From Solanum dulcamara (taxonomy: Eukaryota; Streptophyta; Magnoliopsida; Solanales; Solanaceae): a stretch of DNA of 64,000 bases. This document shows positions 1 to 55,830 of the stretch, in pieces (position 1 is the stretch's first letter; every line of letters begins with the position of its first letter). Below the pieces are notes generated by a model. The model worked only from the letters and a program-made list of their open reading frames with translations, made no database searches and had not been told where the DNA came from. The stretch lies in NCBI RefSeq assembly GCF_947179165.1, contig NC_077242.1, positions 74,691,097 through 74,755,096 of the forward strand. The letters are read 5' to 3'. The translations under genes and the position numbers were made by a program.

Positions 1-293
1 CTGCCTTGACTGCAAGCATCAGTTAGCCTTTTGAGAAAGAGAAGAAACACCAAAACTGGATCTTTTCTCTTCAAACCTCACAAGACCCATCTGAGCTGCC
101 ATACCACGACTTTTTCTTCAATGTCAACCAAATATTGTCTAAACACTAATGAAAAAGACATATATGGTAGAATCGTAACCATAGAATACGACCCTAATTG
201 AAATGCATACATTTGTCTCATACACTAAAGTCTTTTCAGCTCGAGAGGAAAATGTCCGGTTCATCTTTCACAAACAACAATCTTCATAGCCTC
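1..293 (-). ncRNA. A00, class 0, cut by the window edge
   Basis: The box D half lies outside the window. The core is degenerate (GACTGCAAGC) and the loop is lost. The box C end reads GAGGCTATGAAGA on the minus strand. About 115 bp of unrelated sequence interrupts it at roughly 125-238. Confidence 0.4.
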
Positions 294-330
294 TAAAATG
301 TGAAACGGAGGGAGTAATAAATCAATCAAC

Positions 331-442
331 AAAGGGTTGTTTTGCAATTGGAAAAACTTTCATTTGAGAGATCACTGGCAGCAGAGGGGCAAAACCACCC
401 ATAGGAACTCCCTCACAGCTCTCTGTTTTCACCGCAACCTCA
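331..442 (-). ncRNA. B00, class 0
   Basis: The outer arms GGGTTGTTTTG and CAAAACCACCC pair with one mismatch. The extended TTTTG/CAAAA differs from class I TTG/CAA but keeps pairing. CTCTCTG is present; its partner is reduced to GCAGAGGGG. Confidence 0.5.
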
Positions 443-472
443 GACTTAAACTAAGGAGAGTTCCCAGATATT

Positions 473-647
473 GAGGCTCAAGGTCTGTGTTATATCCCGG
501 GCAAAAAGAGATTTGACAACAACATGGCTGCAAAAAACACCAGAAAAACTGGGGTTATGCCCCTCTAAGATACGAGTTGGATAATCTCAAATCTCCAATT
601 AATAAGCTCATAAGGGAATGAAAGGTTGCTAAAGTCATCATTGCCTC
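473..647 (-). ncRNA. A01, class I-like
   Basis: Box C (AATGATGA) and stem GAGGC/GCCTC are kept. Box D is changed to TTGA and the loop to CTAAGATA, so this copy is probably decayed. Confidence 0.45.
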
Positions 648-830
648 TTTCAAGCCGTCAATCATACTGCCATAACTTCTCTCTAGACCGAATGAATCAA
701 TAACAGCTTGCTTGGATGGTTGCTACCCATTGTATTATACTGTTACTTTAGATAGGCCAAATACATAGATAGCCCTTCAAACTTGCCACGAATTTTAAGT
801 TAGACCGTGATCACTTGGACACCTCAACTT

Positions 831-983
831 GACAGATGCAAAAAGAGATCCTACATCGCCATGGCTGCAAGAACCACCACAAAATATAGGGGCATGCACT
901 GCCAAGATACAAGTCGGATAATATCAAATGCCAAATTAATAAGCTCAGAAGGGAATGAAAGATTGATAAAATCATCTTCCCTC
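831..983 (-). ncRNA. A02, diverged copy without box D
   Basis: The core CGCCATGGCTGCA and loop CCAAGATA are intact. The terminal-stem side is replaced (TTGACAGAT) and box C is degenerate. Its counterpart is at 45.07 kb. Confidence 0.4.
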
Positions 984-1060
984 TTTCAAGCCATCAATCA
1001 TATCACCACTGACAATTTAAACAGCCCATGTGTGCAGCTTTTTCTAATTTCCCAGAAATT

Positions 1061-1160
1061 GAGGCTCAGATCTGTGTTATAGCTCAAGCAAATAGAAATC
1101 CAATGATAACATGACTGAACAACCACCAATTTGGGGACATGCTCCGCCAAGATACGGGTC
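1061..1160 (-). ncRNA. A03, class I, box C half missing
   Basis: Begins GAGGCTCAGATCTGTG, has a weak core (ACATGACTGAA), reaches GCCAAGATACGGGT and then runs into spacer sequence. The box C half is deleted. Confidence 0.4.
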
Positions 1161-1460
1161 ACCACCACCACTGGAAGCATTAAATGCTCTGGTAAAGGCA
1201 CAAAGAAAGCAAGCAAGAAAGAAAGATTCATGGTTTTAGCATATATCAAGGAGGAAACCCTTCAAGCTTCCTCACAAATAATGTTTAAACTCCAAATACA
1301 TACTGATCATACTCCCTCTGAAAGGGAATACTGTCAAAATATGGTTGTTACAGTGAAATGTTTTCATAGAGGATGGCTGTTTTAGCGAGGACTGACTGTA
1401 TATGCAACAGATAACTGTTTTTTTGAGACTGCTCTTTAATCCAAAAGAGTGAAGAAAGAG

Positions 1461-1555
1461 ATGCTGCAGTTTTTATAGTAATGGAGAAATCATTGGCTAA
1501 TGCAGAGAGATGCAACCCTTTCAACAAAAATCCTCTTAACTCTCCGGGGCCTCAT
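1461..1555 (-). ncRNA. B01, decayed
   Basis: AATGGAGAAATCATTGGC and GCAGAGAG are recognisable, but both outer arms have lost complementarity and the CTCTCTG strand reads CTCTCCGG. Confidence 0.35.
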
Positions 1556-1776
1556 TCTATCCCTTTTGACCTTTTGCTTTGTCGAGAAGACAGAGGCAAA
1601 TAGACTCTCAAATCTAGAATGGAAGAAATGCCAAATATAGTCCCTTATGTTTGAGAATAGGTTCAACGTAGTCTCTTAAGTATGCAATGAACTCTTTCGG
1701 TCTTTTATATTTGTCATGAGATCAGTACCAAAAAGATACGGTTTCAGTGATCAAACGTAAGTTAAACTGAGATAAG

Positions 1777-1968
1777 GAGGCTCAGATTTTCGCCTATTTA
1801 ATCAAAGAGCAGAGCTAAGCCAGCCATGGCAGCAAATATTGGTTGCCTCATGAGAAGGGACACAATTTCTCATCCTCCTTCACATACCTTCCAAGTTGTC
1901 TTTGCCAAGCCAGGCCTTGGAATTGACTCCAATATTTTCAGTCTTATAAAGATAATCTTCATAGCCTC
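1777..1968 (-). ncRNA. A04, class 0
   Basis: Box D and stem (GAGGCTCAGAT) and the box C end (ATGAAGA plus GCCTC) are intact. The core is GCCATGGCAGCA, and a loop-like GCCAAGCCAGG replaces CCAAGATA. Confidence 0.5.
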
Positions 1969-1984
1969 AGTATTTTTCGATTCT

Positions 1985-2440
1985 CAAGATACAGAAAAGG
2001 GCATCAAACTTGAGGACGGACACATAACACTTCAATTGAAAGACAGAGATAAAAGCTTGTCATGTTAGTACCCTTACATAGTCAAAGCAACTGCTCAAAG
2101 GCCATTTTCCTGACAAGGAATTAAATAGTACAAAGAGCACAAAACCTTCTGAGTTAAATCTTGCCTTAATGGGCAAAGAAAATCTCTTCTCCAGTCAACA
2201 CTCCACTGCTTTGACTCATTCCTGCAAAGTTCAAAGACTTATTTTTCAAGATGATGTAGATAAATGTTGCAGGTTTAATTAAGTAACATATGAATATACA
2301 GCAGGTCACTTTTGTTTGTTTATGGAGAGAATTTAACAGAAGAGACCTGTAAAGTTGCAATTCATGGATTCAAATCCTTCCATCATCAAAAACAACATCA
2401 ACAACTAGTCTTATGACTGAATTTTATAAAATCAATAAAT
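1985..2440. other. Spacer, nothing recognised
   Basis: AT-rich sequence between two A elements. The B expected here is absent, and I see no coding, RNA or transposon signature. Confidence 0.4.
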
Positions 2441-2441
2441 T

Positions 2442-2608
2442 GAGGCTCAGATCTGTGTTTACCTCCGGCAGAAAGAGAGTCCAACAACGGCATGGCTGCA
2501 AAAGCCAACAGAAAATGTGGTGCATGCGCTGCCAAGTTACGGGTCAAATAATCTCAAATGCCCGATTAGTATAAGCCTAGGATGGAATGAAAAATTTACA
2601 AAATCATA
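2442..2608 (-). ncRNA. A05, class I, 3' truncated on plus strand
   Basis: Box D side and core (GGCATGGCTGCAAAAG) are present, the loop is CCAAGTTA, and the copy breaks before box C. Confidence 0.42.
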
Positions 2609-2818: not shown

Positions 2819-2863
2819 AACGCATCTCAAAGCAATCTGGCGACGCCGTGGCAGAGAGAACAT

Positions 2864-3037
2864 GAGGCTCAGATATGTATTAAGCTCGAGCAAAAAGAGA
2901 GTCCAGCGACGCCATGGCTGCAATAATCACCAGAAACTCTGGGAGCATGCCCTGCCAAGATACAGGTCGGATAATCTCGAATCTCTGATTGATAAGCTCA
3001 CAAAGGTATAAAAGATTTACAAAATCATCATCGCCTC
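2864..3037 (-). ncRNA. A06, class I, intact
   Basis: Stem GAGGC/GCCTC, box C (GATGATGA), box D, core and CCAAGATA loop are all present. No B lies before the next A, 98 bp away. Confidence 0.6.
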
Positions 3038-4550: not shown

Positions 4551-4857
4551 AAAGGGTTGGGATTCCTACAGTTATGGATAAATCATTGGCTAATTCAGTG
4601 AGAGGCAACCACCATCACCACCAAGAACAACAACATACCCAGTAAAATCCCACAAGTGAAGTCTGGGGAGGGTAGAATGTTCGCAGACCTTACCACTATC
4701 TTGTGGAGGCAGAGAGGTTGTTTCCGAAAGACCCTCCGTTCAAGTACAACAAATCCAGGTACAAAAAAGGAGACAGTAATGGAGAAATCATTGGCTAATT
4801 CAGTGAGAGGCAACCAACCACCCTTGGAACAAAAATCCTCAGATCCCTGTAGCCTCA
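4551..4857 (-). ncRNA. B03, split by a SINE-like insertion
   Basis: A B element whose middle is duplicated. A 42-bp segment (CAGTTATGG... to GAGAGGCAACC) occurs at 4569-4610 and again at 4774-4815 with two differences, flanking the retroposon between them. Confidence 0.6.
4624..4773 (+). mobile_element. SINE-like retroposon inserted in B03
   Basis: AACAACAACATACCCAGT, GGGGAGGGTAGAATG, CAGACCTTACCAC, GAGGCAGAGAGGTTGTTTCC and CCTCCG follow the family order. The 42-bp flanking repeats are far longer than a normal 8-20 bp target duplication. Confidence 0.68.
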
Positions 4858-4987: not shown

Positions 4988-4998
4988 TCCAGTAAATT

Positions 4999-5173
4999 GA
5001 GGCTCAGATCTGTGCTTAAGCTCAGGCAAAAAGCGAGTCCAACCACGCCATGGCTGCAAAAACCACCAGAAAATCTGGTGGCATGCCCCGCCAAGATACG
5101 GGTCGGATAACGTCAAATGTCCGATTAATCACCTCAGAAGAGAATAAAAATTGGCATAAATCATCATCGCCTC
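4999..5173 (-). ncRNA. A10, class I, intact
   Basis: A reference copy. Minus-strand ends are GAGGC-GATGATGA and CTGA-GCCTC; the core and the CCCCG-CCAAGATA-CGGG hairpin are perfect. Confidence 0.62.
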
Positions 5174-5361
5174 TCTCAAGCCGTCTGATTATACTCACCC
5201 TCATCGCTTCCATCAGCTACACTGGCAACATTCAATGCTCTGACAGAAGCATTAAAAAAATAAAAGAAAAAAAAAGAGTGGAAGGGCATAGAAACCCTTT
5301 GATGATATATAACAACAATCCAAGCTACTGTTAATAATATACTCCCTCCAATAAAATTGAT

Positions 5362-5457: not shown

Positions 5458-5528
5458 TTCTTTCCCTTTTGAGCTTTTGCTTTGTTCATTTTCCCAACCA
5501 TTAGTTTCCCTAAACTGACAGAGAAAGT

Positions 5529-5701
5529 TAGGCTCAGATCTGTGTTAAGCTCAGGCAAAAAGAGAGTCCAACAACGCCATGGCTGCAAAAATCACCAGAA
5601 AATCTGGTGGCATGCCGGGCCAAGATACGGATCGGATTACCTCAAATGCCCGAATAATCAGCTCAGAAGGGAATAAAATTGGCAAAAATCATCATCGCCT
5701 C
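5529..5701 (-). ncRNA. A11, class I, near-intact
   Basis: Box C, box D and core are present; one stem change (TAGGC). The loop stem reads GGCCAAGATACGG. Confidence 0.57.
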
Positions 5702-6462: not shown

Positions 6463-6513
6463 CAATACCAAACAAACCCTAAACAACATTTTCCCAATTG
6501 AAATAGAGAAAGT

Positions 6514-6689
6514 GAGGCTCAGATTTGTTCTAAGCTCGGGCAACAAGAGAGTCCAACAACACCATGGCTGCAGAAATCACCAGAAAAGCTTGGAGCATGC
6601 CCCACCAAGATACAGGTCGGATAATCTCAAATGCCCGACTAATCAGCTCAGAAAGGAATTAAAAAATTGACAAAAATCATCATCGCCTC
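6514..6689 (-). ncRNA. A13, class I, intact
   Basis: Stem, boxes and core are intact; loop context CCACCAAGATACAGG. Confidence 0.58.
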
Positions 6690-8617: not shown

Positions 8618-8672
8618 TATACACTCCAATCAACATTTCTAAGGGTCTTCATGCTTTTAATATAGTATAGAG

Positions 8673-8776
8673 AAAAGGGTTGTTGGGATTCTTACCATAA
8701 TGGAGAAATCATTGGCTGAATGCTGAGAGAGGCAACCACCCTTTTAATGAAAAATCCTCAACTCTCTGTAGCCTCA
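8673..8776 (-). ncRNA. B08, class I, intact
   Basis: Outer arms AAAGGGTTGTTGGG/GGCAACCACCCTTTT, GAGAGAGG and CAACTCTCTG all present. Confidence 0.57.
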
Positions 8777-8889
8777 TTCTTTCCCTTCTGAGCTTTTTGC
8801 TTTTTGTTTCTCAACTCTTGAAAACATTTTTGTTCATACCGAACACACCCTCATATAATAAAAAAAGCCAAGCTGAATAGAGAAAAATT

Positions 8890-9063
8890 GAGGCTCAGAT
8901 CTGTGTTAAGCTTGGGCAAAAAGAGAGTCCAACAACGCCATGGCTGCAAAAACCACTAGAAAAGCTGGGAGCATGCCCCGCCAAGATACGGTCGGATAAT
9001 CTCAAATGCCCGATTAATCAGCTAAGAAGGGAATTAAAAGTTGACCAAAATCATCATTGCCTC
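8890..9063 (-). ncRNA. A17, class I, intact
   Basis: GAGGC-AATGATGA and CTGA-GCCTC ends; full core; loop stem shortened on one side (CCCCG...CGG). Confidence 0.61.
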
Positions 9064-10222: not shown

Positions 10223-10339
10223 TCTTTCCCTTCTGAGCTTTTTGACTTTTGTTCCTCAACCCGCGAAAACATTTTCCTTCATACCAAACACACCCTTAAT
10301 ATTAAACAAAAAAGAGCCCTAGTTGAATAGAGAAAAATT

Positions 10340-10513
10340 GAGACTCAGATCTGTGTTAAGCCCGGGCAACAAGAGAGTCCAACAATGCCATGGCTGCGAA
10401 AACCACCAAAATATCTAGAAGCATGCCCTGCCAAGATACAGGTTGGATAACCTCAAATGCCCAATTAATCAGCTCAGAAGGGAATAAAAATTGGCAAAAA
10501 TCATCATCGCCTC
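10340..10513 (-). ncRNA. A19, class I
   Basis: Box C and box D intact, stem changed to GAGAC on one side, core GCCATGGCTGCG, loop stem CCCTG/CAGG (a compensatory variant of CCCG/CGGG). Confidence 0.56.
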
Positions 10514-12115: not shown

Positions 12116-12147
12116 GGCTTAATATTACTCCCTCTGTTAAAATTTAT

Positions 12148-12249
12148 AAAAGGGTTGTTGGGGGTTCTTACAGTAACGGAATCATTGGCTGATGTAGAGA
12201 GCGGCAACCACCCTTTCAATGAAAAATCCTCAACTCTCTATAGCCTCAT
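12148..12249 (-). ncRNA. B12, class I
   Basis: AAAGGGTTGTTGGGG/GGCAACCACCCTTT; distal S1 strand CTCTCTA, partner TAGAGAG. Confidence 0.53.
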
Positions 12250-12374
12250 TCTTTCCCTTCTGAGCTTTTTGCTTTCTGTTTCTAAACTCTCAAAAAACAT
12301 TTTCCTTCACACCAAACACAACCTAAATATTATTTTTTTTTTAAAAAAAAAATCAAGCTTAATAGAGAAAAATT

Positions 12375-12547
12375 GAGGCTCAGTTCTGTGTTAAGCTCGG
12401 GCAACAATAGAGTCCAACAATGCCATGGCTGCAAAAACTACCAGAAAATCTGGAAGCATGCCCTGCCAAGATACGGGTTGGATAACCTCAAATGCCCAAT
12501 TAATCAGCTCAAAAGGGAATAAACATTGGCAAAATCATCATCGCCTC
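12375..12547 (-). ncRNA. A21, class I, intact
   Basis: GAGGC/GCCTC stem, box C GATGATGA, box D CTGA, full core; loop stem CCCTG/CGGG. Confidence 0.6.
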
Positions 12548-13067: not shown

Positions 13068-13095
13068 TTTCAAGCCATCCGAAGCAATAAAAGCA

Positions 13096-13425
13096 AGAAC
13101 AACATACCCAGCATAGCCCCACATAGTGGGATTTGGGGAAGGTAGAGTGTACATATATCTTACCCTTACTTCTAAGGTAGAGAGGTGGTTTCCGATAGAC
13201 TCTCGTTTCAAGAAAAACAGTCCAAAGCAGTCCAGAAAGAGTAACAAAATATACTGAACATTAACTACAAAAATATACGATAGTCGAAGTATAAGAAATG
13301 TTGGATAGTAACAAAATGGAAATACAAGAAACTACATGAGTAATATTATGACTACTAGTATGGGGCTATGGGCAGATAGCAAGACAATGCACTACTACCT
13401 ACAAACCTCCTACCCTAATCTATGT
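13096..13425 (+). mobile_element. Retroposon (SINE-like with extended 3' part)
   Basis: Starts AACAACATACCCAGC, continues GGATTTGGGGAAGGTAGAGTG, CTTACCCTTACT, GGTAGAGAGGTGGTTTCCG and AGACTCTCG, then an extra 200 bp ending ACCTCCTACCCTAAT...GTCCTCCACA not seen in the short copies. Confidence 0.62.
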
Positions 13426-16200: not shown

Positions 16201-17060
16201 TTTCTTGCCTTCTCGACTACTTGATCCAAAATCTTTGCAGAAGCTTCTTAATTCTTCCTTGGTCATGCTATGATCTTTCCAATCTTGCCTTTCAAATTTT
16301 TATCTTGTAATATGACGTAAACACTCGATGCGGGTAAGTTTTTATACCAACTAATAATTCCCATCATATATTGCTGTTGAAAACCTTGTCACACTTAATA
16401 TCAAACAATATTCATAAAAACAGTAGAGAGAATTCTCTTTTGTTTTTTAATAACCAAGAAATCCCCCCAGTAATGGCTCACAGTTTGAAACTGTATCTGC
16501 ACAGGTCCATCCCTACCTTTCTCTGCTTAAACACCAAGCTTCTTTCAGTCAGCATCATAATTCAAACTCGTGACATGCATCTAACAGAAAATCAAAGAGA
16601 CCATTTGAAAGAAGGGATTACAAAAGAAACGCGTTGGACTGAGCACGAAGGACTAAAACAACCAAAAAGGAACGTTTGAAGTATAAGCAAAACATATGCA
16701 GGACTCAAATTGTGCAGTCAAAAGAGAATGAGAATGTAGCCAAGCTTAGAATCAGCTGAAGTCAGAACCATATATTAGTTCAACAACTAAATTTGTTCCA
16801 AGCTTGTCCAATTTATAATATTGGCAACAGGGAAAAAGAGGGGATCAACAAATACAGAACCCCTCGGCAAAGTTGCCTTGTTTTGCAGTTAACATGCAAT
16901 TATTTTCTAACTTAACTAATGTTAAATACTCTTTCGACAATAGATATGCATGTTCATTGGCAAAACTTAGGAGGGAAAATGCTTCCTTAAATCCAAGGAT
17001 CACCAACAAGCAGTTTAGAAAACCCTCGACACAAAGAACTATGACAAATACATTATACTA
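16200..17060. other. Spacer, no gene recognised
   Basis: A 102-codon plus frame (16371-16679) exists, but its composition and lack of recognisable domain give no support for a gene. Confidence 0.4.
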
Positions 17061-17064: not shown

Positions 17065-17845
17065 CGATAACATAGAGCTAATAGAGGCGTCATCTATCAG
17101 AGTAACTATGACAAAAAGCTTCATTTGGATGTTAATCCATGGCTTAAATTAAATTACTCATCATTTAGGATGAATTGCTTAATGCACGAAGTGAACGAAA
17201 TCAAGTGAAGGAGAACAATAAGTATGAAGACTCCTAAGATAATACATCATAAAACAAGGAAGTATGATTTCTTGTATAGATTGTTCATCAACAAAAGAGA
17301 ACCCCTATGATAATACATAGCAGAAACAAGAAACTGACAAAATGAAGCATAAAAATCAACTAGTGAAACAACTTCTTTAGATAAGTAATTGTGATAACAT
17401 AGTGCTAATATAGGTGTCATCTATCAGAGTAACTATGACAAAAAAGCTTCATTTGGATGTTAATCCATGGCTTACTTGAATTACTCATCATTTAGGATGA
17501 AATCTTTTGTGCATAGAGTAAACAAACTGACTAGAAGGACAACAGTAAGAAGGATGAAGAGTCCTAACATAATACACAACATACTTCTTGTATGGATCAT
17601 TCATCAATGAAAGAGAACCCCTAAGATAATACATAGCAGAAACAAGAACCTGACTAAATGAAGCATAAATTCAACTACTGAAACAACTTCTTTAGATAAG
17701 TGGTCGTGATAATATAATATATTGCTGATAGAGGTCGTCTATCAGAGTAACTATGACAAAAAGCTTCATTTGGATGTTAATCCATGGCTTACTTAAATTA
17801 CTCATCATTTAGGATGAATTTCTTCATGCACGGAATAAGACCAAG
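17065..17845. repeat. Tandem repeat, about 2.4 copies of a 314-328 bp unit
   Basis: Units start at 17065, 17393 and 17707 with GATAACATAG...CTATCAGAGTAACTATGAC, then AGCTTCATTTGGATG and TTAATCCATGGCTTA. Units differ by substitutions and small indels. No similarity to A or B. Confidence 0.9.
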
Positions 17846-19356: not shown

Positions 19357-19472
19357 AAAAGGGTAGTTTTTTGCAATCATTTTGAGTGATCATCGGCGGC
19401 GGAGAATGACAGAGAGTGGCAAAACCACCCATTAAAACTCCCTAAAGCTCTCTGCTTTCACTGCCGCCTCAT
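19357..19472 (-). ncRNA. B17, class 0, promoter-proximal
   Basis: On the minus strand GGGTGGTTTT pairs with AAAACTACCC (one G-U), CAGAGAG with CTCTCTG, and GGCGG with CCGCC. It begins about 45 bp downstream of the TATA-like box on the same strand. Confidence 0.6.
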
Positions 19473-19517
19473 ACTTAAACTAATGAGATTTGTGCTATTT
19501 TCTTGTTAATGCTGATT

Positions 19518-24639: not shown

Positions 24640-24690
24640 TTTATGTACCTTTCATCGACACATACACACAAGACAAGACGGTGTATATAA

Positions 24691-24797
24691 CAACAACAAC
24701 AACATACCCAGTGGGATCCCACAAGTGGGGTCTGGAGAGGGTAGGGTGTACGCAGACCTTACCACTATCTCATAGAGATAGAGAGGCTATTTCCAAG
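24691..24797 (+). mobile_element. SINE-like retroposon fragment
   Basis: Five-fold AAC run, ATACCCAGTGGGATCCCAC, GGGGTCTGGAGAGGG, GTACGCAGACCTTACC and GATAGAGAGGCTATTTCC. Confidence 0.65.
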
Positions 24798-24849: not shown

Positions 24850-24954
24850 CAAGGGTTGTTGGTCGTTTAATAATGGAGGAAAATCAATGGCAGAACAGAG
24901 GGGCAAGGGCAACCACCCTTTAAAGAAAATCCCAAACTCTCTGTTTTGCCTCAT
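24850..24954 (-). ncRNA. B19, class IV
   Basis: AAGGGTTGTTGG/GGCAACCACCCTTT; S1 strands ACAGAGGGG and CTCTCTGT; lower stem GGCA/TGCC. Confidence 0.55.
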
Positions 24955-25108
24955 TTTTGAGCCAACCTTTTTCCTTTTTGGGGGAAATTCTTTGGTTTTT
25001 TCACCTTCGAATTTCCCATTTTTCCGATGCTTCAGAGCTAAAATTTCAATTATGGGTTTCTCCACCTGGAGAATGGACTCACCACGGTAAACCATGAAAT
25101 GAGTTATT

Positions 25109-25450: not shown

Positions 25451-25612
25451 TTCTTCTTTCTTTCTAGGCTATGCTCGGCTGATACCTGAACAAATATGAA
25501 GATACATTGGGACTGCAAGATGATTTATAGCTTGTAGCAGAAAATCGCATGTTAAACATATCCCAAAGTTGAATCACGGAAAGATTCTTTTTCTCTTTCT
25601 TTTCAAGCAAAT

Positions 25613-25802
25613 GGGGCTCAGATGTATGTCATGATAAGGACAAAAAGAAGCCAACCATGCCATGGCTGCAAACATGGGTTGCATGTGAGAGACAGAAGCA
25701 TCAATCACATGCCATACCGGGTCGCCACACCAAGATACGGGTCGGATAATCTCAATGCCCAAATTGGTTAGTCCAGAATAGGAACATCATCATCACTGCC
25801 TC
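25613..25802 (-). ncRNA. A32, class IV, intact
   Basis: GGGGC/GCCTC, box C GTGATGATGA, box D, core GCCATGGCTGCA, loop CCAAGATACGGG. Confidence 0.58.
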
Positions 25803-26236: not shown

Positions 26237-26499
26237 AGTTCCAGCTAATTTCCTTTTTTTCCCACTATTTTCATCCAATTATTTTACGAAGACAAAAAGT
26301 ATTAACGTTTGGAAAACTTAAAGGACCAAAATTGTTAAGTGCATATTTAAGGAATTATTTTGGACATACCCTCAAACATAAGAGACCATTTTTGTCATTT
26401 TCTCCCTCATTCTTCGGAGCCAAAATTTCAACACAAACCCATAATAGGTTTTCACCCCCAAGAATGGACTCACCATGGAAGATCATGAAATGGGTTATT

Positions 26500-26683
26500 G
26501 ATGCTCAGATTTGCTGTATTTCTTAACAAAGAAAAAGAGAAGAGCCCCGCCGCCATGGCTGCAGACACCAGTTTGCTATTCAAAGCCGTAACTAGGTCGC
26601 CCTGCCAAGATACAGGTCGGGTCTATCTCAATGCTATAATTGAACGTAGACCAGAAAGGAAAGCAAGCAATCATCATAGCCCC
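26500..26683 (-). ncRNA. A33, class II
   Basis: Box D intact, core GCCATGGCTGCAGAC, loop CCCTG-CCAAGATA-CAGG, box C ATGATGA; stem partly changed (GATGCT). Confidence 0.55.
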
Positions 26684-28532: not shown

Positions 28533-28652
28533 ATTTGAGAAAATGGTTGCATAATTTTCAAGAAATTAGGATACTTTGGATTAAGCCTCATTAACCAGAT
28601 TGAGGTCCAAATACTACTACTACTAGCACTGTTAATGCTTTACTTTCAACTG

Positions 28653-28802
28653 GAGGCTCAGATGTGTATCTGAGGCATTGAGTTTTCTGGCACCTGCCAT
28701 GGCTGCAACCTCAAAAGATTCAAGTTGCCATGCCAAGATACAGGCAACAAAAATCTAGTGCACAATTTTAATTAGTTCAGCAGACATTATCATCATAGCC
28801 CA
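28653..28802 (-). ncRNA. A36, class VIb
   Basis: Box C ATGATGA, box D CTGA, core GCCATGGCTGCA, loop CCAAGATACAGG. Confidence 0.55.
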
Positions 28803-29196: not shown

Positions 29197-29434
29197 GAGG
29201 AGCTCAGATCTCAATTTTCTATTGGGGTAAAGAGAAGGCAACCACGCCATGGCTGCAAAAGAACCAATTGCATGTGAAAGAGAAGCCTCAAATCACAGCC
29301 CATGATGGTGTTAGCCAAGCCAAGATACGGGTTGGGATGTCTCTATGCCCAAATGAAAATGAGGACGAAATTTAAAGTGGCCCCAAAAAAGACCATTTTT
29401 GCAAATGCCGATAAACAAGTATCATCACGGCCTC
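29197..29434 (-). ncRNA. A37, class VIc
   Basis: Box C GTGATGA with GAGGC intact; the box D side has an extra base (GAGGAGCTCAGAT). Core GCCATGGCTGCA, loop CCAAGATACGGG. Body extended to about 238 bp. Confidence 0.54.
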
Positions 29435-30653: not shown

Positions 30654-30755
30654 AAAGGGCTGTTGATTTTTTCAGTCCATTAATTGAGAAATCACTGGCA
30701 AAGCAGAGATGGCCAACCACCCTTTACAGAAAATCCCAATTTCTCTGATGCCTCA
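30654..30755 (-). ncRNA. B27, class II
   Basis: AAAGGGCTGTTG/CCAACCACCCTTT; GCAGAGATGG/CCAATTTCTCTGATGC. Confidence 0.56.
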
Positions 30756-30819
30756 TTCTTCAGAGCTGAAATTTCAACGCAGATCCGTAATGGATTTTCC
30801 GACCCTAATGGATTATTGA

Positions 30820-36243: not shown

Positions 36244-36800
36244 CTATCTAAGAAAAATGACACCAAATGTTGATTGTCTATAGAAGGCTGAGTGATCACA
36301 CTTATTCTTTTTCAATCCAAATTCTTGAACTACATCGTTGAATTTTCCAAACCAGGCACGAGGACTATGCTTCAGACATATAAAAACTTTCTCAGATGAC
36401 AAACTTCCCCATACGTCCCGAGCAACAAACCCAGGTGGTTGGTCCATATATACCTCTTCATGAAGATCACCATGAAGGAACGCATTCTTGATATCCAACT
36501 GATGTAAAGGCCAATGTTGAGAAGCAGACAAGGAAATAAACAAACGGACAGAGCTGAGCTTGGCTACCAGAGAGAAGGTGTCAAACTAATCCACCCCACA
36601 AATCTGAGCATAGCCTTTAGCTACAAGTCTAGCCTTAAGTCTTGCAACAGAGCCATCAGGATCAACTTTCACTGCAAACACCCACTTGCACCCTACTGCT
36701 TTCTTTCCTTTGGGTAAATCCATCAAATCCTGAGTATGATTTTCATCTAGAGCATATATCTCCTCAAGCATTTCGTCGTGCCATTCGGGATGATTTAAGG
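36244..36800 (-). pseudogene. Ty1-copia reverse transcriptase, N-terminal part
   Basis: LPKGKKAVGCKWVFAVK and LKARLVAKGYAQ are hallmark copia RT text. QLDIKNAFLHGDLHEEVYMDQPPGF follows in a later segment, split from the first by frame breaks. The YVDD active-site region is missing. Confidence 0.85.
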
Positions 36801-36839
36801 TTCCTTCACTGTTTGGGGGATTGATATAGAGTCTAGAGA

Positions 36840-37023
36840 GGGAAGGGGAGCCTTGGAGTAACTGGTAAAGTTGCTGTCATGTGACCAGGATGTCACGGGT
36901 TCAAGCCTTGGAAACAGCCTCTGGCAGAAATGCAAGGTAAGGCTGCGTACAATAGACCCTTGTGGTCGGGCCCTTCCCCGGACCCTGCGCATAGCGGGAG
37001 CTTTAGTGCACCGGGCTGCCCTT
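36840..37023 (+). mobile_element. SINE (TS-type) nested in the copia pol gene
   Basis: Plus-strand A box TAACTGGTAAAGT and B box GGGTTCAAGCC, then AAGGCTGCGTACAATAGACC, CCCTTCCCCGGACCCTGCGC and GGGCTGCCCTTTT. Flanked on both sides by TATAGAGTCTAGAGAGG, a long target duplication expected for LINE-mobilised SINEs. Confidence 0.86.
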
Positions 37024-38211
37024 TTATATAGAGTCTAGAGAGGCAATCAAACAACTAGATGCAAGAGATAAGTGGTCATAAGAAACAACATTGGCAATGG
37101 AATAAGTGGATTTGCACTGACATGTACCTTTTCGAAGAGCAATAAAAAGGTCTAGATTTTCTAAAGCATCAAATGGAGGAGGATTTGATGACAAAGGAAT
37201 TGATGTAGGACATGTGTCATCAGTTTCTCGCCTCCGCGTGTAAACTTGGATAATTGGTGGTCTTGTTGGTATAGATAGAGCATGCGTTAAAGGCACAATA
37301 GTTGATTGATGCTCAATAGAAAAACTAAGAGATTGAAGAACAACATCATGTGATTGCTCTGTCACAAAACGAGTAACCCGATAGACTAAGCATTCATCTT
37401 CCTCCCCCTGACTTGTAGAAACAGGAGGTGCATAGAAGAATGGTGTAGTCTCTGAAAACACCACATCAGTTGCCACCAAATATTTGCCAAGTTCAGTAGA
37501 ATAACATTGATACCCTTTCTGAAGGCCAGAATAGCCCAAGAAAACACACTTCAATGCCTTCGGGTCTAACTTGGCAACAGATGGTCGAAAATCTGGGAAA
37601 TAAAATGTGATACCAAACACCTTAGGTTCCAACAAAAATAGTGACTTGTTTGGAAAAAGGACAATGTAAGGCACATTACCAACAAGCACAGTTGATGACA
37701 TTCGATTAATCCGAAAACAAGTGGTAAAGACCGCATCTGCCCAAAACTGTTTAGGAACCTTCATTTGGAACAAAAGTGCCTGAGCTATCTCAAGTAGATG
37801 TCTATTCTTCCGCTCAGCAACTCCATTTTGAGAAGGTGTATCAACACATGAAAACTGATGGAGAATACCGTGTTGTCTCATGTAAGACTGAAACATTTCT
37901 GACATGTATTCTTTAGCATTATCACTCCTTAGAGTACATACCAAAGCATTGAATTGAGTTTTGACTTCAACATGAAAGGCACAAAAGTGAGTAAATACTT
38001 CAAAGCTACTCTTCATAAAATAAATCTAAGTCATTCGAGAGAAATCATCCACAAAAGTGACAAAATACTTACGCCCAATTTTGGAAACAACAGGACATGG
38101 TCCCCAAACATCAGAATGAACTAACTCAAAAGATGACTCAACTCGTTTATTAACCCTTAGACCTAATGAGATGGGATGGTGTTTTGCAAATTTACATGAC
38201 TCACAATCCAA
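37024..38211 (-). pseudogene. Ty1-copia integrase core and GAG-pre-integrase
   Basis: GAG-pre-integrase end MDCESCKFAKHH and integrase start HSDVWGPCP and FVDDFSRMT at 38.03-38.21 kb. The main frame (38016 down to 37024) has LRSDNAKEY, HQFSCVDTPSQNGVAERKN, KCVFLGYSGLQKGYQCY. The D,D(35)E residues are visible across the two frames. Broken between frames at about 38020. Confidence 0.88.
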
Positions 38212-38379
38212 TGTAGAAATTTTTTGAAACTGAGGACAGTTTCTTCAACACAGGTAAGAAGGATGACCCAATCGACAATATGCTTCAAATGGAGACACAA
38301 CACTATAGCATGCAACAGATAGAGATTCCCATTCATCAAGGATGTAGAGATCAGCGGATACATATCCATTACCAATAAC

Positions 38380-38799
38380 CTAATTCATCGTAAGATCACG
38401 AAACAAACAATGATCGGGATAGAAAGAGATATAACACTTAAGGTCTCTTGTAAGTTTACAAACAGAAATCAAATTAAAGGCCAGTTTTGGTAGACTTAAT
38501 ACAGATGACAGAGTAATAGATGAGGTTGGTTTAACAGTCCCTGATCCAAGACTATTACAAGTTAATCCATCGGCTACGGTAACCGGAGAGGGTGCTTTGT
38601 GTGATTGGAAGCTAGAAAAAATATTAGGATTCCCTGTCATGTAATTTGTGGCACCTGAATCAATCACCCATTTATTTGAAGAGATGATAAGACATGTTTT
38701 ATTTGACTCAACAAAGACGTTAATTGAAGCGGATTCCTTCTCTGATTTATGATATTGAAAGAATTTAGCAAACTCATCAGCTGAAACCCGATCAGACAT
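38380..38799 (-). pseudogene. Ty1-copia protease region
   Basis: Starts MSDRVSADEFAKF; contains WVIDSGATNYMTG, the aspartic protease active site DSGA, then SVLSLPKLAFNLISV. Upstream gag (38.8-39.4 kb) is not recognisable. Confidence 0.82.
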
Positions 38800-39434
38800 T
38801 TTGAACTAATGTTTAGTCCAAAAGGATTTTAAAATAGATTACAGATGATTACAGGTAACAAGGGTTGCAACCAAATTAACAAGACCTGTAAATAAGTTAT
38901 CTGCCAACAAAGATGTCCCTCACAGACCAAGAAGATATTTGGACAATGGTGAGACCTGAACCCAATCTGGAAAATGGACTTGAACAGACCTAAAAAGAAA
39001 CTTAAAACTTCACCCAAGTCCTAGAAACAAACAGTCTCCAAACAGAATTCTTAAATCTAGACAGTACCACTGGAAAGGTTCAAATAGAATTTGAATCTAA
39101 GATCCACAGATACCAAAACCCAACAAATACCAAAACCCAATGCTCAAAATTAATGGTGGTTGGAAAAAGAGATCAAAAAAGATCTTTCGAAGAGCTAGAG
39201 TCAAAAAATAGGAAGTGAACAACACACTTTCCAAGCAGAGTTTTAGTGCCAGAAGATTACCAGAATATGTCGTGAATGCCGAGAAGATACTGGAGCAGTA
39301 AGCCAAAACAAGTTCTGCCAGACCATGGACTGGTAAGTGAAAGACAACCCAAATAGCCGAGACCTCCTCTCAAGCTACCAGGAAGGTATGGAATTTCTAA
39401 TCAATGATTTTGAGCCCTAGTAGCTCTGATACCA

Positions 39435-41816: not shown

Positions 41817-41878
41817 TTCATCAGAGCTGAAATTGAAATGCAAACCCCTAATGGGTTCGCCGACCCAAATGGGTTATT

Positions 41879-42041
41879 GAGGCTCAGATTTTCTGAATTT
41901 GAACAAAGCACAAGAGAAGAGCAACACCGCCATGGCTGCAGACAATAGTTAACTATTCAAAGCCGTACTGGGTCCCCCTGCCAAGATACGGGTCCATGAT
42001 TGAATATAGCCCATAAAGGAAGCAAGCAATCATCACAGCCC
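41879..42041 (-). ncRNA. A50, class II
   Basis: GAGGCT/AGCC, box C GTGATGA, box D, core GCCATGGCTGCAGAC, loop CCCTG-CCAAGATA-CGGG; short body. Confidence 0.56.
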
Positions 42042-42149
42042 ATTTACAGCAATAGTAACAGCAGCAGCAGCATAAAGAGACAGAGCAAGAAGAATATAAG
42101 GGTGTGTTTGGATGAAATTTTTTTATTATGTTTTCTTTTTGTTTATTTC

Positions 42150-42306: not shown

Positions 42307-42487
42307 GAGGGCTCAGATTTGCTGTATTTGAACAAAGCAAAAGAGTAGCAACACCGCCATGGCTGCAGACACCAGTTTGCTATTCAAAGCCAAACCAGGT
42401 CGCCCTGCCAAGATACGGGTCAAATATTTTCTCAATTGCCATGATTGAACATAGCCCAGAAAGGAAGCAATCAATCATCATAGCCCC
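42307..42487 (-). ncRNA. A51, class II, intact
   Basis: GGGCT/AGCCC, box C ATGATGA, box D, core GCCATGGCTGCAGAC, loop CCAAGATACGGG. Confidence 0.6.
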
Positions 42488-42585: not shown

Positions 42586-42687
42586 AAAGGGCTGTTGGTT
42601 TTTTTGTTCCATTAATGGAGAAATCACTGGCAAAGCAGAGATGGGCAACCACCCTTTACAGGAAATCCCAATTTCTCGATGCCTCAT
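42586..42687 (-). ncRNA. B37, class II
   Basis: AAAGGGCTGTTGG/GGCAACCACCCTTT; GCAGAGATGGG/CCCAATTTCTCGATGC. Confidence 0.56.
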
Positions 42688-42749
42688 TCTTCAGAGCTGA
42701 AATTTCAACACAAACCCATTATAGATTTTCCAACTCGAATGGGTAATTG

Positions 42750-42825: not shown

Positions 42826-43008
42826 GGGAGCTCAGATTAGCTGTATTTGAACAAGAGAAGAGCGACACCGCCAATCGCCATGGCTGCAGACACCGGTTTG
42901 CTATTCAAAGCCATAACCAGGTCGCCATGCCAAGATAAGGGTCGGATATTTTCTCAATTGCCATGATTGAACATAACCAGAAAGGAAGTAATCAATCATC
43001 ATAGCCCC
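42826..43008 (-). ncRNA. A52, class II
   Basis: Box C ATGATGA, box D CTGA, core GCCATGGCTGCAGAC, loop CCAAGATAAGGG. Confidence 0.56.
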
Positions 43009-45345: not shown

Positions 45346-45628
45346 GAAAAATACAAACATGGTAACTAGCATAAATGCAAAACTTCAAAAAAAAACAGGG
45401 GCTTCCCAGAAAAGGAACGCAACCCCCTCCAACATTTCATTCAAATGCCTCAATCTTGAGCTGTTACTTATCAAAAGATGGAGATGCAGTACGAATGAAA
45501 AGCATTTAAACTGCAAATCAGAAGGGCATTGGTTCAATATCTCACACATTAATCATGGAAAAGATATTGCCCCTTATGCATAGTATAGGGGTAAATTTGA
45601 CCCTTTTCCCTTTTTTCTTTAGCAAATT

Positions 45629-45809
45629 GAGGCTCAGATTTGTGTTGTGCTGAGGCAAAAGAGAAGCCAACCACGCCATGGCTGCAACACATGATTGCAT
45701 GTGTGAGTTATGCATCTCAATCACAGGCCATACTGGGTTGCCCCGCCAAGATACGGGTTGGGTTATCTCAATGGCTGAATTTAGTTAGCCCAGAAATCAT
45801 CACTGCCTC
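45629..45809 (-). ncRNA. A59, class IV, intact
   Basis: GAGGC/GCCTC, box C GTGATGA, box D, core GCCATGGCTGCA, loop CCCCG-CCAAGATA-CGGG. Confidence 0.6.
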
Positions 45810-46047: not shown

Positions 46048-46123
46048 CTTGCCATTTCTGAGCTAACCTAACGAAAGGGAATTCACAAGACTCGAAAGGT
46101 CCTCTCACCCAATTGTTTCTCTT

Positions 46124-46309
46124 GAGGCTCAGATCTGTTATAAAATCAGGCAAAAGGAGACAAAACAATCGCCATGGCTGCAGGCCTCGGTTGCAAAACA
46201 ATGGAAATGCCTTACCAAGTTGCCCCGCCAAGATACGCACAGTTTCAATGCACAACCCAACTCTATGATCTATACAGCTTCATTTGTTATCATCAGTCAT
46301 CACAGCCTC
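46124..46309 (-). ncRNA. A60, class V, intact
   Basis: GAGGCT/AGCCTC, box C GTGATGA, box D, core GCCATGGCTGCAGG, loop CCCCG-CCAAGATACG. Confidence 0.6.
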
Positions 46310-46487: not shown

Positions 46488-46592
46488 TAAGGGCTGTTGG
46501 TTTGTTTTAAAAAATGGAAGAATCATAGGCAAAGCAGAGAAAAGGGCAACCACCCTTGTATAGAAATCCCATTACTCTCTATGCTGCCTCAT
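46488..46592 (-). ncRNA. B43, class V
   Basis: AAGGGCTGTTGG/GGCAACCACCCTT; GCAGAGAAAAGG/TTACTCTCTATGC. Confidence 0.55.
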
Positions 46593-46660
46593 TCTGAGCT
46601 AATCTAACAAAAGGGGTTTACAAGTAATTACTTGCCAAAACGGAAATGGGTTTTTCTCTT

Positions 46661-46834: not shown

Positions 46835-46876
46835 AACAAGTGAAGAAATAGGAGTTTTCAAAAGGGTCTTTCTAGA

Positions 46877-47046
46877 AAGGCTCAGATCTGTAACACAAAA
46901 TCAAGCAAAAGGAGACAAAGCAACTGCCATGGCTGCAGACCTAGGTTTGCAAAATAATGGAAATGCCTTACCAGCTCACCACGCCAAGATACTCCAATAT
47001 GCCCGATCCAACTATAGACAACTTCATTTGTCATCATCACAGCCTC
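46877..47046 (-). ncRNA. A62, class V
   Basis: Only about 42 bp after A61 with no B between. Box C GTGATGATGA, box D, core GCCATGGCTGCAG, loop GCCAAGATACTCC. Confidence 0.54.
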
Positions 47047-47950: not shown

Positions 47951-47968
47951 ACAGAAAATTTAGAAAAT

Positions 47969-48200
47969 GAGGCTCAGATCTAAGTTTCTGATGGGGCAAA
48001 GAGAAGGCGACCACGCCATGGCTGCAATAGAACCGATTGCATGTGAAAGAGAAATCTCAAATCACAGACCATTTCGGTGTTTGCCAACCAAGATACGGGT
48101 TGGGATGCCTCAATGCCCGGATGAAAATAAGGACAAAATTTAAATAGTGGCCTTAGAAAAGGTCGCAAATTGCCTAATGAACAAGTATCATCACTGTCTC
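47969..48200 (-). ncRNA. A63, class VIc
   Basis: Box D, core GCCATGGCTGCA, loop ACCAAGATACGGG, box C GTGATGA; closing stem GTCTC. Confidence 0.54.
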
Positions 48201-50033: not shown

Positions 50034-50100
50034 TTTATGCAACTTCCATCAAAACAGTAAGGGCACGCGCACACACACACAAACAAAAGAAAAGACTGTT

Positions 50101-50260
50101 AACAACAACAACAACAAACAACATACCCAGTGAAATCCCACTAAGTGGGGTCTAGGGAGGGTAGAGTGCATGCAAACCTTATCACTACCTCGTGAAGGTA
50201 GAGATGTTGTTCAGAAAGACCCTCGGCTCAAGTGCATCAAACCCAAGTAGAATAAGAAGA
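50101..50260 (+). mobile_element. SINE-like retroposon
   Basis: AAC run, ACATACCCAGTGAAATCCCAC, GGGGTCTAGGGAGGG, TGCAAACCTTATCACTACC, GAAGGTAGAGATGTTG, GACCCTCGGCTCAAG. Confidence 0.62.
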
Positions 50261-51700: not shown

Positions 51701-51704
51701 TTTT

Positions 51705-52668: not shown

Positions 52669-52721
52669 TCTTCCCTTTTGAGCTTTTTCTTTGTTCATTT
52701 AACTAAACTGACAGAGAAACT

Positions 52722-52894
52722 GAGGCTCAGATCTTTGTTAAGCTCGGGCAACAAGAGAGTCCAACAACGCCATGGCTGCAAAAACCACCAGAAAATCTGG
52801 GAGCATGCCCTGCCAAGATATGGGTAGGATAACCTCAAATGCCCTATTATCAGCTCAGAAGGGGATTAAAATCTGACAGAATCATCATTGCCTC
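52722..52894 (-). ncRNA. A72, class I, intact
   Basis: GAGGC/GCCTC, AATGATGA, CTGA, core GCCATGGCTGCA, loop CCCTG-CCAAGATATGGG. Confidence 0.6.
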
Positions 52895-52899
52895 TTTAC

Positions 52900-53588: not shown

Positions 53589-53770
53589 GAGGGCTCAGAT
53601 TTGCTGTATTTGAACAGAGCAAAAGAGAACAGCGACGACGCCATGGCTGCAGACACCGGTTTGCTATTCAAAGCTGTACTGGGTCACCCTGCCAAGATAC
53701 GGGTCGGATATTCTCTAAATACCATGATTGAACATAGCCCACAAAGGAAGCAAGCAATCATCACAGCCTA
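53589..53770 (-). ncRNA. A73, class II
   Basis: GGGCT/AGCC, box C GTGATGA, box D, core GCCATGGCTGCAGAC, loop CCCTG-CCAAGATA-CGGG. Confidence 0.58.
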
Positions 53771-53988: not shown

Positions 53989-54048
53989 TTTCAGAGCTGA
54001 AATTTCAAAGCAAACCCGTAATAGGTTTTTCGACCCAAATGGGTTATT

Positions 54049-54184: not shown

Positions 54185-54189
54185 GGCAG

Positions 54190-54390
54190 CATATGCAAGC
54201 CACTCCCATACAAATCATAGAAAATACTACCACCGTTTCAATTTGTTTGTCTTCCTTTTTTAGTCTGTTCTAAAAAGAATGTCTCTTTCCTTTTTTGGCA
54301 ACACTTGAATTCTAACTTTCCACATGACATCTTTAAAACCACAATATTAAAGGGCATTTTGGAACATTCTACATATCTTAAGTTTAAGAC
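54190..54390. mobile_element. MITE-like sequence, paralogue of 51.48 kb
   Basis: ATACTACCACCGTTTCAATTTG, CCACATGACATC, TTAAAGGGCATTTT. Confidence 0.58.
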
Positions 54391-54476
54391 CTCCGGGTTG
54401 CCCGCTAAGATACGGATCCAATTGCTCTCCCGCACTATTGATTTGCTCAGAGAAAGAAGAAAATTATCATCACAGC
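54391..54476 (-). ncRNA. A75, class III, box C half only
   Basis: Starts at CCGGGTTGCCCGCTAAGATACGG; the box C end reads GTGATGATAA on the minus strand. Confidence 0.42.
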
Positions 54477-54574
54477 ATCAGAATGTTTGCAACAATTATT
54501 ATTATTCATGGATGTGAGAATTTGGAGAGAACAAGCAAAGACTTAAGGGTCGTTTGGATACTGTTTAACTGCCA

Positions 54575-54667
54575 CAAGAGCTGTTGAATGCAACACTGAA
54601 ATCACGGGTATTGCACAGAGGAGTGACAGCCCTTTGAACTTCCCCTCTACTCTCTGCAACCCTCATT
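54575..54667 (-). ncRNA. B52, class III
   Basis: AAGAGCTGTTG/TGACAGCCCTTT; GCACAGAGGAG/CTCTCTGC. Confidence 0.53.
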
Positions 54668-54765
54668 CTTCGTCTCTGAACTTTTACTTTTCTAGACTAA
54701 GCTTTTTACCTTTTATGGAAAATTCTCGTGTGTTTTTCAACCTGCGAATTTCCCAACTGCAACTG

Positions 54766-54840
54766 CAACAACAACAACCCAATGTAATCTCACCTCTACC
54801 TTGTGGAGGTCAAGAGGCGATTATCAATAGACCCTAAGCA
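54766..54840 (+). mobile_element. SINE-like fragment
   Basis: CAACAACAACAACCCAATGTAA, TACCTTGTGGAGGTCAAGAGG and AATAGACCCT. Confidence 0.52.
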
Positions 54841-54851
54841 AATCAAACATT

Positions 54852-55027
54852 GAGGCTCAGATTTGTAATACTTACGATACCGCAAGAGAGAATGAATCAC
54901 CGCCATGGCTGCAAGCACCGGTTGCAGGATAACCTGCCATCCGGGTTGCCCCGCCAAGATACGGGTCTGATTTCTTTCCTGCACTATCAATTTGCACAGA
55001 GAAAGAAGAAAATCATCATCATAGCCT
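54852..55027 (-). ncRNA. A76, class III, intact
   Basis: GAGGCT/AGCCTC, box C ATGATGATGA, box D CTGA, core GCCATGGCTGCA, loop CCCCG-CCAAGATA-CGGG. Confidence 0.62.
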
Positions 55028-55042
55028 CGGAATTTTTGCAAC

Positions 55043-55080
55043 AATTATTATTATTATTATTATTATTACTACTACTATTG
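55043..55080. repeat. (ATT)n/(ACT)n microsatellite
   Basis: Twelve or so trinucleotide units. A shorter ATT run follows A77 at the same relative place (55.64 kb). Confidence 0.92.
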
Positions 55081-55151
55081 ATTCTCACTTTGGCGTTGAG
55101 AATTTCGAGAGAACAAGCAAAGATTAAGGGGTCATTTGGTAGTTGTCAATT

Positions 55152-55262
55152 AAAAGGGCTGTTGAATTTATATTTTTTCACAGCAAAAATTGAAATCACA
55201 GGCATTGCAGAGAGGAGCAACAGCCCTTTTAGGTGTTCCCCTCTACTCTCTGCAACCCTCAT
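55152..55262 (-). ncRNA. B53, class III, best-paired B
   Basis: Outer arms AAAAGGGCTGTTG and CAACAGCCCTTTT pair perfectly over 13 bp. S1 strands TTGCAGAGAG and CTCTCTGCAA pair perfectly over 10 bp. The second S2 strand abuts S1 directly, so the pairings can coexist only as a pseudoknot. Confidence 0.65.
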
Positions 55263-55346
55263 TCTTCGTCTCTGAGCTAAGCTTTTTTTCTTTAACAGAG
55301 AAATTCTCATGTGTTTATCAACCTTCGAATTTCGCAGCTGCAACAA

Positions 55347-55436
55347 CGATGACGACAACAACAACAACAACCCAGTGTAATCTCACTCCTACCTTGTGGA
55401 GGTAGCAAGATTGTTTCCAATACACTATCAGCAAAT
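55347..55436 (+). mobile_element. SINE-like fragment
   Basis: CAACAACAACAACCCAGTGTAA, TACCTTGTGGAGGTAGCAAG, TTGTTTCCAATAC. Shared position with 54.77 kb, so it duplicated with the class III cassette. Confidence 0.52.
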
Positions 55437-55444
55437 GAAACATT

Positions 55445-55627
55445 GAGGCTCAGATCTGTAATACTTACGATATAGCAAAGAGAGACTCAAATCACCGCCA
55501 TGGCTGCAAGCACCGGTTTCTGGGTCACCTTCCATCCGGGTTGCCCCGCCAAGATACGGGTCCAAATCCTCTCCTGCACTATCAATTTGCTCAGAGAAAA
55601 AAACGAAGCAAATCATCATCACAGCCT
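55445..55627 (-). ncRNA. A77, class III, intact, right-most A
   Basis: GAGGCT/AGCCTC, box C GTGATGATGA, box D, core GCCATGGCTGCA, loop CCCCG-CCAAGATA-CGGG. Confidence 0.62.
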
Positions 55628-55707
55628 CATAAATTTCGCAACAATTATTATTATTATTATTACTATATGATTCAAGCAAAGGGGCCGTTTGGTAGGTGTT
55701 TAACTGC

Positions 55708-55830
55708 AAAAGGGGCTGTTGAAATTATCAATTTTTCCACAGCAAAAATCAGTATCATAGACGTTGCAGAGAGGAGCAACAAGCCCTTTAAACTTTCTCG
55801 GTTCCTCCTTTACTCTCTGCAATTCCTCAT
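55708..55830 (-). ncRNA. B54, class III, right end of array
   Basis: AAAGGGGCTGTTG with CAACAAGCCCTTT (one bulge); TTGCAGAGAG/CTCTCTGCAA perfect. Confidence 0.6.

Follow-up and report, generated by a model that had tools for sequence, protein, structure and literature searches.

In yeast, snR190 is a box C/D small nucleolar RNA (snoRNA) of ~190 nt with a long central stem. Its box A is complementary to helix 73 of 25S ribosomal RNA (rRNA) (PMC8536666); the RNA reportedly guides no methylation and is proposed to act as a placeholder chaperone (PMC8536666, PMC8994135). It is transcribed with U14 as a dicistronic precursor (PMC8994135). Here we describe an array of two elements, A and B, in a 64,000-nt stretch of the Solanum dulcamara genome (hereafter the window: contig C6, NC_077242.1, positions 74691097-74755096, of a 942-Mb assembly in 32 contigs). 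Model and motif matches place the array at window positions 331-55842 on the minus strand. Like snR190, A is a long C/D-type element with a central stem; instead of accompanying U14, it stands alongside B in an array of ~100 copies. We consider it likely, from the sequence, that non-protein-coding RNA genes, together with decayed copies of them, make up this one-strand cluster, in which A is a long C/D snoRNA and B a structured companion.

Our best reading of the locus is one of clusters of C/D snoRNA genes outside Rfam, which would have been greatly expanded and would now be mostly decaying. In A, pairing of the ends in a terminal stem would hold the C and D boxes together, and between them would stand a long central hairpin whose internal loop hardly varies. 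B would be another structured RNA, with a stem (P1) flanked by kink-turn-like UGA motifs and a further pairing (P2), and would probably derive from the same precursor as A. Tandem and segmental duplication would have multiplied the unit, and about half of the window copies would have lost the C box, the D box or the terminal stem. What we show directly is the sequence, its strand and copy number, the boxes, the predicted structure and the pairing statistics.

Two alternating elements on one strand

Copies of A were counted with a covariance model (R1) at E<=0.001; the model was built from an alignment (A1) of 15 A copies, which match it by construction. It places 75 copies between 472 and 55628, 75 on the minus strand and 0 on the plus strand. 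A search with motifs alone found 68 places on the minus strand (one of which, at 17146, sits in an snR63-like repeat and is not an A), 1 on the plus strand and 0 on the reversed sequence. B copies, recognized by an anchor and at least two of three further motifs, number 45. In minus-strand order, neighbouring pairs are A-B 39 times, B-A 39 times, A-A 28 times and B-B 5 times, so that A and B alternate, imperfectly. Median anchor spacing is 206 nt from A to B and 358 nt from B to A. Reading by eye covered window positions 1 to 57500, and the classes used below (i-ix for A, b1-b6 for B) were assigned by eye.

The large array and the single orientation described in the original prediction are both real; the sense strand, which that prediction did not give, is minus. 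It had placed the array at 1-55830, but the edges of the window do not end it. To the left there is one weak A match in the first 10 kb (L027) and none in the next 10 kb; to the right follow 7 and then 18 further copies, and none in the last 20 kb fetched. The full array on C6 therefore spans ~86 kb, from 74690550 to 74776681, with 75+7+18+1 = 101 A copies on a single strand. It is broken up, for example near 36-39 kb, by copia-like sequence. The copia-like retrotransposon pieces there (36244-38805) include a retroviral SH3-like domain above cut-off and an integrase core below cut-off.

On the sense strand A opens with the stem sequence GAGGC followed by a C box, RTGATGA, and closes with ATCTGA-GCCTC, the D box and the other side of the stem. 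It is ~150-190 nt long, and its central hairpin contains the nearly invariant internal loop. With a C box RUGAUGA near the 5' end, a D box CUGA near the 3' end and a terminal stem that joins the ends, A shows the hallmarks, in sequence, of a box C/D snoRNA, an unusually long one. This type was not foreseen by the original prediction. Among the 75 model-found copies, 43 have an exact C box, 63 the D box CTGA, 54 at least 4 of 5 terminal-stem pairs and 58 an exact TATCTTGG. The two boxes and the terminal stem occur together in 37 copies, and all five features (these three, TATCTTGG and GCAGCCATGG) in 22. The boxes are also enriched at the 68 places found independently of them: ATCTGAG occurs in 49 (background 4.5%), the exact C box in 36 (background 6%) and both in the expected position in 29. 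A terminal stem of at least 4 contiguous pairs is found at 32 of 50 A places, against a background of 8%. The stretch adjoining the D box is variable, and a search for D and D' guides gave no convincing one. A reading of A as a tRNA or short interspersed element (SINE) was dropped by eye, the spacing being too variable.

Element B, likewise on the minus strand, runs from AATGAGGC through stem P1 to GCC(T)ATGATTT. The P1 loop holds GGGTGGTTG, which is predicted to pair with a downstream CAACARCCC to form P2. The two pairings overlap and would form either a pseudoknot or alternative structures. At 84 B places, found independently of the flanking motifs, ATGAG lies upstream in 46 (background 3.8%), [AGT]TGA[TC]T downstream in 49 (background 4.7%) and both in 39; these UGA motifs on either side of P1 suggest a kink-turn. 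B is a structured element of no assigned class. We looked by eye in the printed copies, with no formal count, for the features of an H/ACA snoRNA and saw neither an H box ANANNA nor an ACA three bases from the 3' end. A splice-site reading based on a GTAAGA donor was also dropped by eye, since the donor occurs only in class-i-type copies.

Predicted structure and its controls

Single-sequence folds of the four best-preserved A copies, all in the right flank of the window, show the ends closed in the terminal stem and, inside it, a single long central hairpin that carries the conserved internal loop. Their minimum free energies (MFEs) range from -56 to -67 kcal/mol, with z of -1.6 to -4.4 against mononucleotide shuffles. 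The 40 best window copies have a mean MFE of -51.1, versus -41.8 for their complements.

In the central helix, the part adjoining the loop (CGACYCG with CGTGGTCG) differs from class to class. Over the 68 window places, duplex energy is -7.19 with a copy's own partner versus -6.01 with permuted partners, a value reached in 0 of 5000 permutations. Permutation at the level of classes, which left out 4 of the 68 places as having no class, gave 246 of 362880. In a fixed register the paired fraction is 0.670 versus 0.618 when shuffled (0/2000), and slid registers give 0.34-0.38; double-changed cells number 61 versus a shuffled mean of 40.4 (1/2000). The fixed-register set, which includes a few chance places, draws its 125 unique combinations from 158 copies: 69 in the window and 23 in other parts of C6, plus 49 from C11, 12 from C3 and 5 from C10. 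For B, over 56 copies from several loci, the copies' own pairing was reached in 0 of 3000 permutations for P1 and 15 of 3000 for P2; in the window alone, P2 was reached in 3 of 5000.

Several results weigh against RNA genes. The C box, the D box or the terminal stem is missing from 38 of the 75 A copies. On folding, z averages -1.72 for the minus strand of the 40 best window copies and -1.53 for their complements. Slid registers of the central helix give 60 and 55 double-changed cells, so the count of 61 does not single out the register. Pairing of the terminal stem in the window does not exceed permutation (1257/5000 and 747/5000), with no excess of covariation, nor does that of B P1 in the window (409/5000). 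RNAalifold on the 15 copies of A1, whose predicted structure does not place the variable helix, returns a covariation term of -0.38 and a double change in 1 of 19 pairs. The copies are related, so the permutation counts overstate significance and are not formal probabilities. Finally, an Rfam scan of the window, a check that had been proposed along with the original prediction, found 0 families at gathering score, for A and B as for the rest, and no U14. The slid-register and complement-strand controls slightly lowered our confidence in the best explanation. The proposal that the elements are non-coding RNA genes therefore stands in silico as regards the C/D boxes, the terminal stem as a feature, the central helix in A and both stems in B, and is weakened or contradicted in part by the missing terminal-stem covariation, the small RNAalifold term and double changes that do not outnumber those of slid registers.

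The units could instead be exons or remnants of a minus-strand protein-coding gene. A few minus-strand frames do stay open across A, and looked promising by eye. This reading failed on frame and on Pfam: loop-to-anchor distances (25, 33, 40, 48, 49, 67, 69 and others) do not differ by multiples of three, and 0 of 8 array open reading frames (ORFs) tested, from 28 listed of at least 110 amino acids, contained a Pfam family. We regard a coding origin as very improbable.

Conservation, decay and related loci

Between nine class representatives, one for each class, TATCTTGG is 100% identical, TGCAGCCATGGC 93%, ATCTGAGCC 98% and the C box 79%, values that lean upwards because these same motifs, at no more than 1-3 mismatches, served to find the representatives. 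Stretches between the fixed blocks are near the shuffled level (0.72-0.78 versus 0.69-0.76), and downstream sequence is at it (0.68 versus 0.68). Short fixed blocks amid drifting spacers had been predicted and are borne out. Constraint on an RNA could produce such a pattern. In a ranking of windows within class i, those over TATCTTGG and GCAGCCATGG are among the highest 0.3% and 2.2%, and the C and D boxes come no higher than the top 11% and 16%. Consensus agreement in class i (24 copies) is 0.85 inside the element and 0.58 downstream; in class ii (15 copies) it is 0.85 and 0.62. The original prediction had offered selection or recent amplification as causes; the divergence fits an old amplification better than a recent one on this chromosome.

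The right flank of the C6 window contains two similar, well-preserved B-A-A clusters (L028 1622-2420 and 6214-7035, minus strand). Their four A copies have a G+C content of 0.50-0.54, above nearly all window copies, and clean stems. We see these clusters as candidate working genes. They also bring up a different account of the window, in which almost all of its A and B copies are dead, a pseudogene array generated from a few functional clusters such as these by duplication without selection on most copies. The scarcity of copies with all five features (22/75), the copia-like insertion near 36-39 kb, the higher G+C and clean stems of the L028 copies and the spread of younger class-i duplicates over C11 would all be expected of a dead array. 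Against it, the central loop and D box are fixed between classes that are otherwise near shuffled sequence, and the central helix is paired above permutation both within and between classes. We give this account an even chance.

Copies of A occur well beyond C6. The exact pattern GGCTCAGAT-N30-50-CCATGGCTGCA is found 97 times genome-wide (C3 7, C6 42, C7 5, C10 11, C11 32), and the reversed pattern 0 times. A DNA search of the genome scored 40 of its 93 candidates, of which C11 holds 35 and C6 5. With the model, 18 fetched 10-kb stretches of C11 give 44 A copies, and small pieces of C3 and C10 give 24 matches, 5 of them places counted twice because the loci overlap. Strand is uniform among model matches inside each fetched stretch. 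Part of C11 has been duplicated recently: L019, L023, L024 and L026 are 97.7-99.8% identical to L025 over 8.0-9.5 kb. Each of these five duplicated segments carries two A copies, a case of recent segmental amplification. On C3 and C10, diverged A and B are adjacent, which suggests that the two probably stood together before the C6 array arose.

This distribution bears on the possibility that A and B belong to a transposable element or satellite without RNA function. Copies on five contigs, some in small groups (C7, C11), and the near-identical recent duplicates on C11 could be explained in that way. Such an origin is unlikely in our view, given the single orientation in every fetched stretch with model matches, the irregular spacing of the units, helices paired above permutation and the snoRNA-like elements that adjoin the units.

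Rfam scans of the related loci yielded little. Only two models, both for group II introns, reached gathering score in the 7 related 10-kb stretches scanned; both matches lie in L015 outside its A copies. The C3 and C10 loci gave a truncated U3, no snR190 and, on AT repeats, weak matches to microRNA models. The truncated plant U3 snoRNA (L037 2768-2870, minus strand, 46.3 bits against a cut-off of 80) adjoins an A copy on the opposite strand.

snR190, neighbouring elements and known snoRNA clusters

By architecture, the nearest known RNA to A is yeast snR190. Compared by eye with the Rfam consensus (RF01249), the two share the order C box, CCCGU, internal loop, UGGC...GCC, loop, CG.GG and a 3' end of AGAUCUGAGCC. 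RF01249 aligns over its full length at 54854-55026 with 27.7 bits (E 0.00063 in 1.9 kb, 0.021 in 64 kb); the gathering cut-off is 40 bits. A second match, at 54403-54477, has 13.4 bits and an E-value of 4.7.

We also compared A with rRNA in silico, taking the helix-73 target GCCAAGGGAACGGG from a fungal large-subunit primer (PMC12625182). For the A segment CCCGTATCTTGGC, pairing with it has a mean energy of -18.5 kcal/mol (117 unique segments), a value equalled by 0 of 300 shuffled targets. The match consists of helices of 5 and 7 pairs around a small internal loop; the yeast consensus has 14 consecutive pairs. Part of it, CTTGGC, is the partner strand of helix 73 within the rRNA itself, so A may mimic that strand. 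Helix 73 is the best window of a small panel for 4 of 4 A classes tried, with a margin of 0.1 kcal/mol in class i. The windows of this panel are taken to represent plant 25S. Shuffled snoRNA segments find an equally good window in fractions of 0.07-0.33, and by this control the helix-73 energies do not stand out.

A might be the plant orthologue of snR190, a C/D snoRNA chaperone of early pre-60S particles. The full-length match, the common order of elements and the complementarity of its box A to helix 73, as reported for yeast (PMC8536666), speak for orthology. The match lies below cut-off, at best 27.7 bits, and in a single copy; none was found at 45.5-48.2 kb, in the well-preserved flank copies or in the C3 and C10 pieces. 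Genome-wide there was none at E<=0.001 among 31 scored of 26723 first-look candidates, and control genomes gave 0/14. A profile hidden Markov model scores the snR190 consensus at 8.0, equalled by 11 of 998 shuffles, and the window lacks a U14 at gathering score. The box B-like pyrimidine stretch, moreover, pairs in cis in the folds of the flank copies. We hold orthology to be possible but would not favour it.

That pyrimidine stretch had been put forward as antisense to 25S domain I, with 10-11 nt of complementarity in six class-i copies. The site is not the best one by energy, and against a fungal D1/D2 sequence runs of at least 9 occur on the box B side in 31 of 58 copies and on the opposite strand in 17 of 58. 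The opposite-strand runs, the energy rank and the pairing in cis led us to withdraw it as main evidence. For B against 25S, the 3' end of class b1 gives -23.1, equalled by 0 of 60 shuffles, and that of b2 is equalled by a fraction of 0.38. A search of viral contigs for an rRNA piece gave 0 matches.

Literature on plant snoRNA clusters, tandem snoRNA duplication, snR190 in plants and Arabidopsis rRNA methylation contains no title on such an array among the matches listed, and the term snR190 occurs 0 times in three Arabidopsis snoRNA and rRNA papers (PMC7464842, PMC8053127, PMC8351944). A or B may correspond to an Arabidopsis orphan snoRNA (Kim et al. 2010).

The 22 copies with all five features, identified with R1 and a feature check, are all on the minus strand. 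The copy with the best model score lies at 42307-42487. Class i is represented at 8889-9063, class ii at 26499-26683, 41878-42042 and 53589-53770, class iii at 25612-25802 and 45628-45809, class iv at 29198-29434 and 47968-48200, class vi at 28652-28802 and class viii at 46123-46309 and 46876-47046. Two copies belong to class ix, at 55444-55628 and at 54851-55028, the latter carrying the weak full-length snR190 match. The others are at 2863-3037, 4998-5173, 5528-5701, 6513-6689, 10339-10513, 12374-12547, 42826-43008 and 52721-52894.

Well-kept B copies, also on the minus strand and with approximate edges, were identified from motifs and pairing, except for the one at 12145-12260, which was identified from motifs. 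The copy at 8670-8785 has CAGAGAG/CTCTC in P1 and AAAGGGTGGTTG/CAACAACCC in P2; in that at 12145-12260, P1 is kept through a C-G to T-A change (TAGAGAG/CTCTCTA). P2 is GGGTGGTTT/AAACTACCC in the class b6 copy (19358-19475) and AAAGGGCTGTTG/CAACAGCCCTTT in a class b5 copy (55153-55275); a second b5 copy, at 55710-55842, is the rightmost in the window. Class b3 is found at 24850-24965, class b2 at 30654-30770 and 42586-42700 and class b4 at 46488-46605.

Further snoRNA-like elements on the same strand within the array support its interpretation as a cluster of RNA genes. Three tandem C/D elements resembling snR63 and snoR442 (17066-17831, minus strand, period 327) end in GTCATAGTTACTCTGA. All three matches are weak and below cut-off: 21.0 bits to snR63 and 23.5 to snoR442 at 17095-17168, 18.5 and 22.0 at 17422-17495, and 20.2 and 23.5 at 17740-17812. 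An H/ACA snoRNA-like stretch on the minus strand at 16716-16879 has a weak snoR144 match of 32.3 bits, also below cut-off, in which the 5' hairpin matches well. The same whole-window scan returned a plainly chance match to a Streptococcus small RNA at a better E-value (0.00082), so these weak snoRNA-family matches need backing from position and guide sequence.

Short repeats between units (2700-2810, 4630-4740, 13090-13210, 24690-24790 and 50100-50230) resemble by eye what we take to be Solanaceae TS-type SINEs. An element end like CTCCCTCCGTT, presumably of Stowaway type, lies near 5340, 5880, 7390, 12130 and 53205; its identical place in many class-i units suggests that it was probably duplicated along with them. 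Neither an exact telo-box nor an upstream sequence element was found on the minus strand. Outside the array, a minus-strand ORF at 58619-59191 has a DUF1985 domain.

We infer transcription, processing, an rRNA target and a role for B. If the locus is transcribed, A would point to a chaperone of large-subunit assembly in plants, B would be a second, previously unknown RNA beside it, and the expansion, decay and dosage of a snoRNA family could be traced copy by copy. A more far-reaching version, which we find doubtful, is that B represents a new class of structured RNA, in which a UGA-flanked stem is combined with a loop-to-tail pseudoknot; that it is produced along with a C/D snoRNA of the plant lineage, which pairs with 25S helix 73; and that this lineage keeps the large array in use, as a plant counterpart of the large mammalian snoRNA arrays.

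Those arrays, SNORD115 and SNORD116, consist of many tandem C/D copies in the same orientation, and the C6 array likewise has 101 A copies over ~86 kb. The mammalian copies are intronic in the host transcript of an imprinted region (PMC4742849); on C6, A alternates with another structured element, B. In the C/D cluster on tomato chromosome 6 (PMC7762058), several snoRNA genes lie close together, as the putative ones do here. That cluster is made up of a few different C/D snoRNAs (SlSnoR12, SlU24a, Slz44a and Slz132b), whereas the S. dulcamara array repeats one type ~100 times, together with B.

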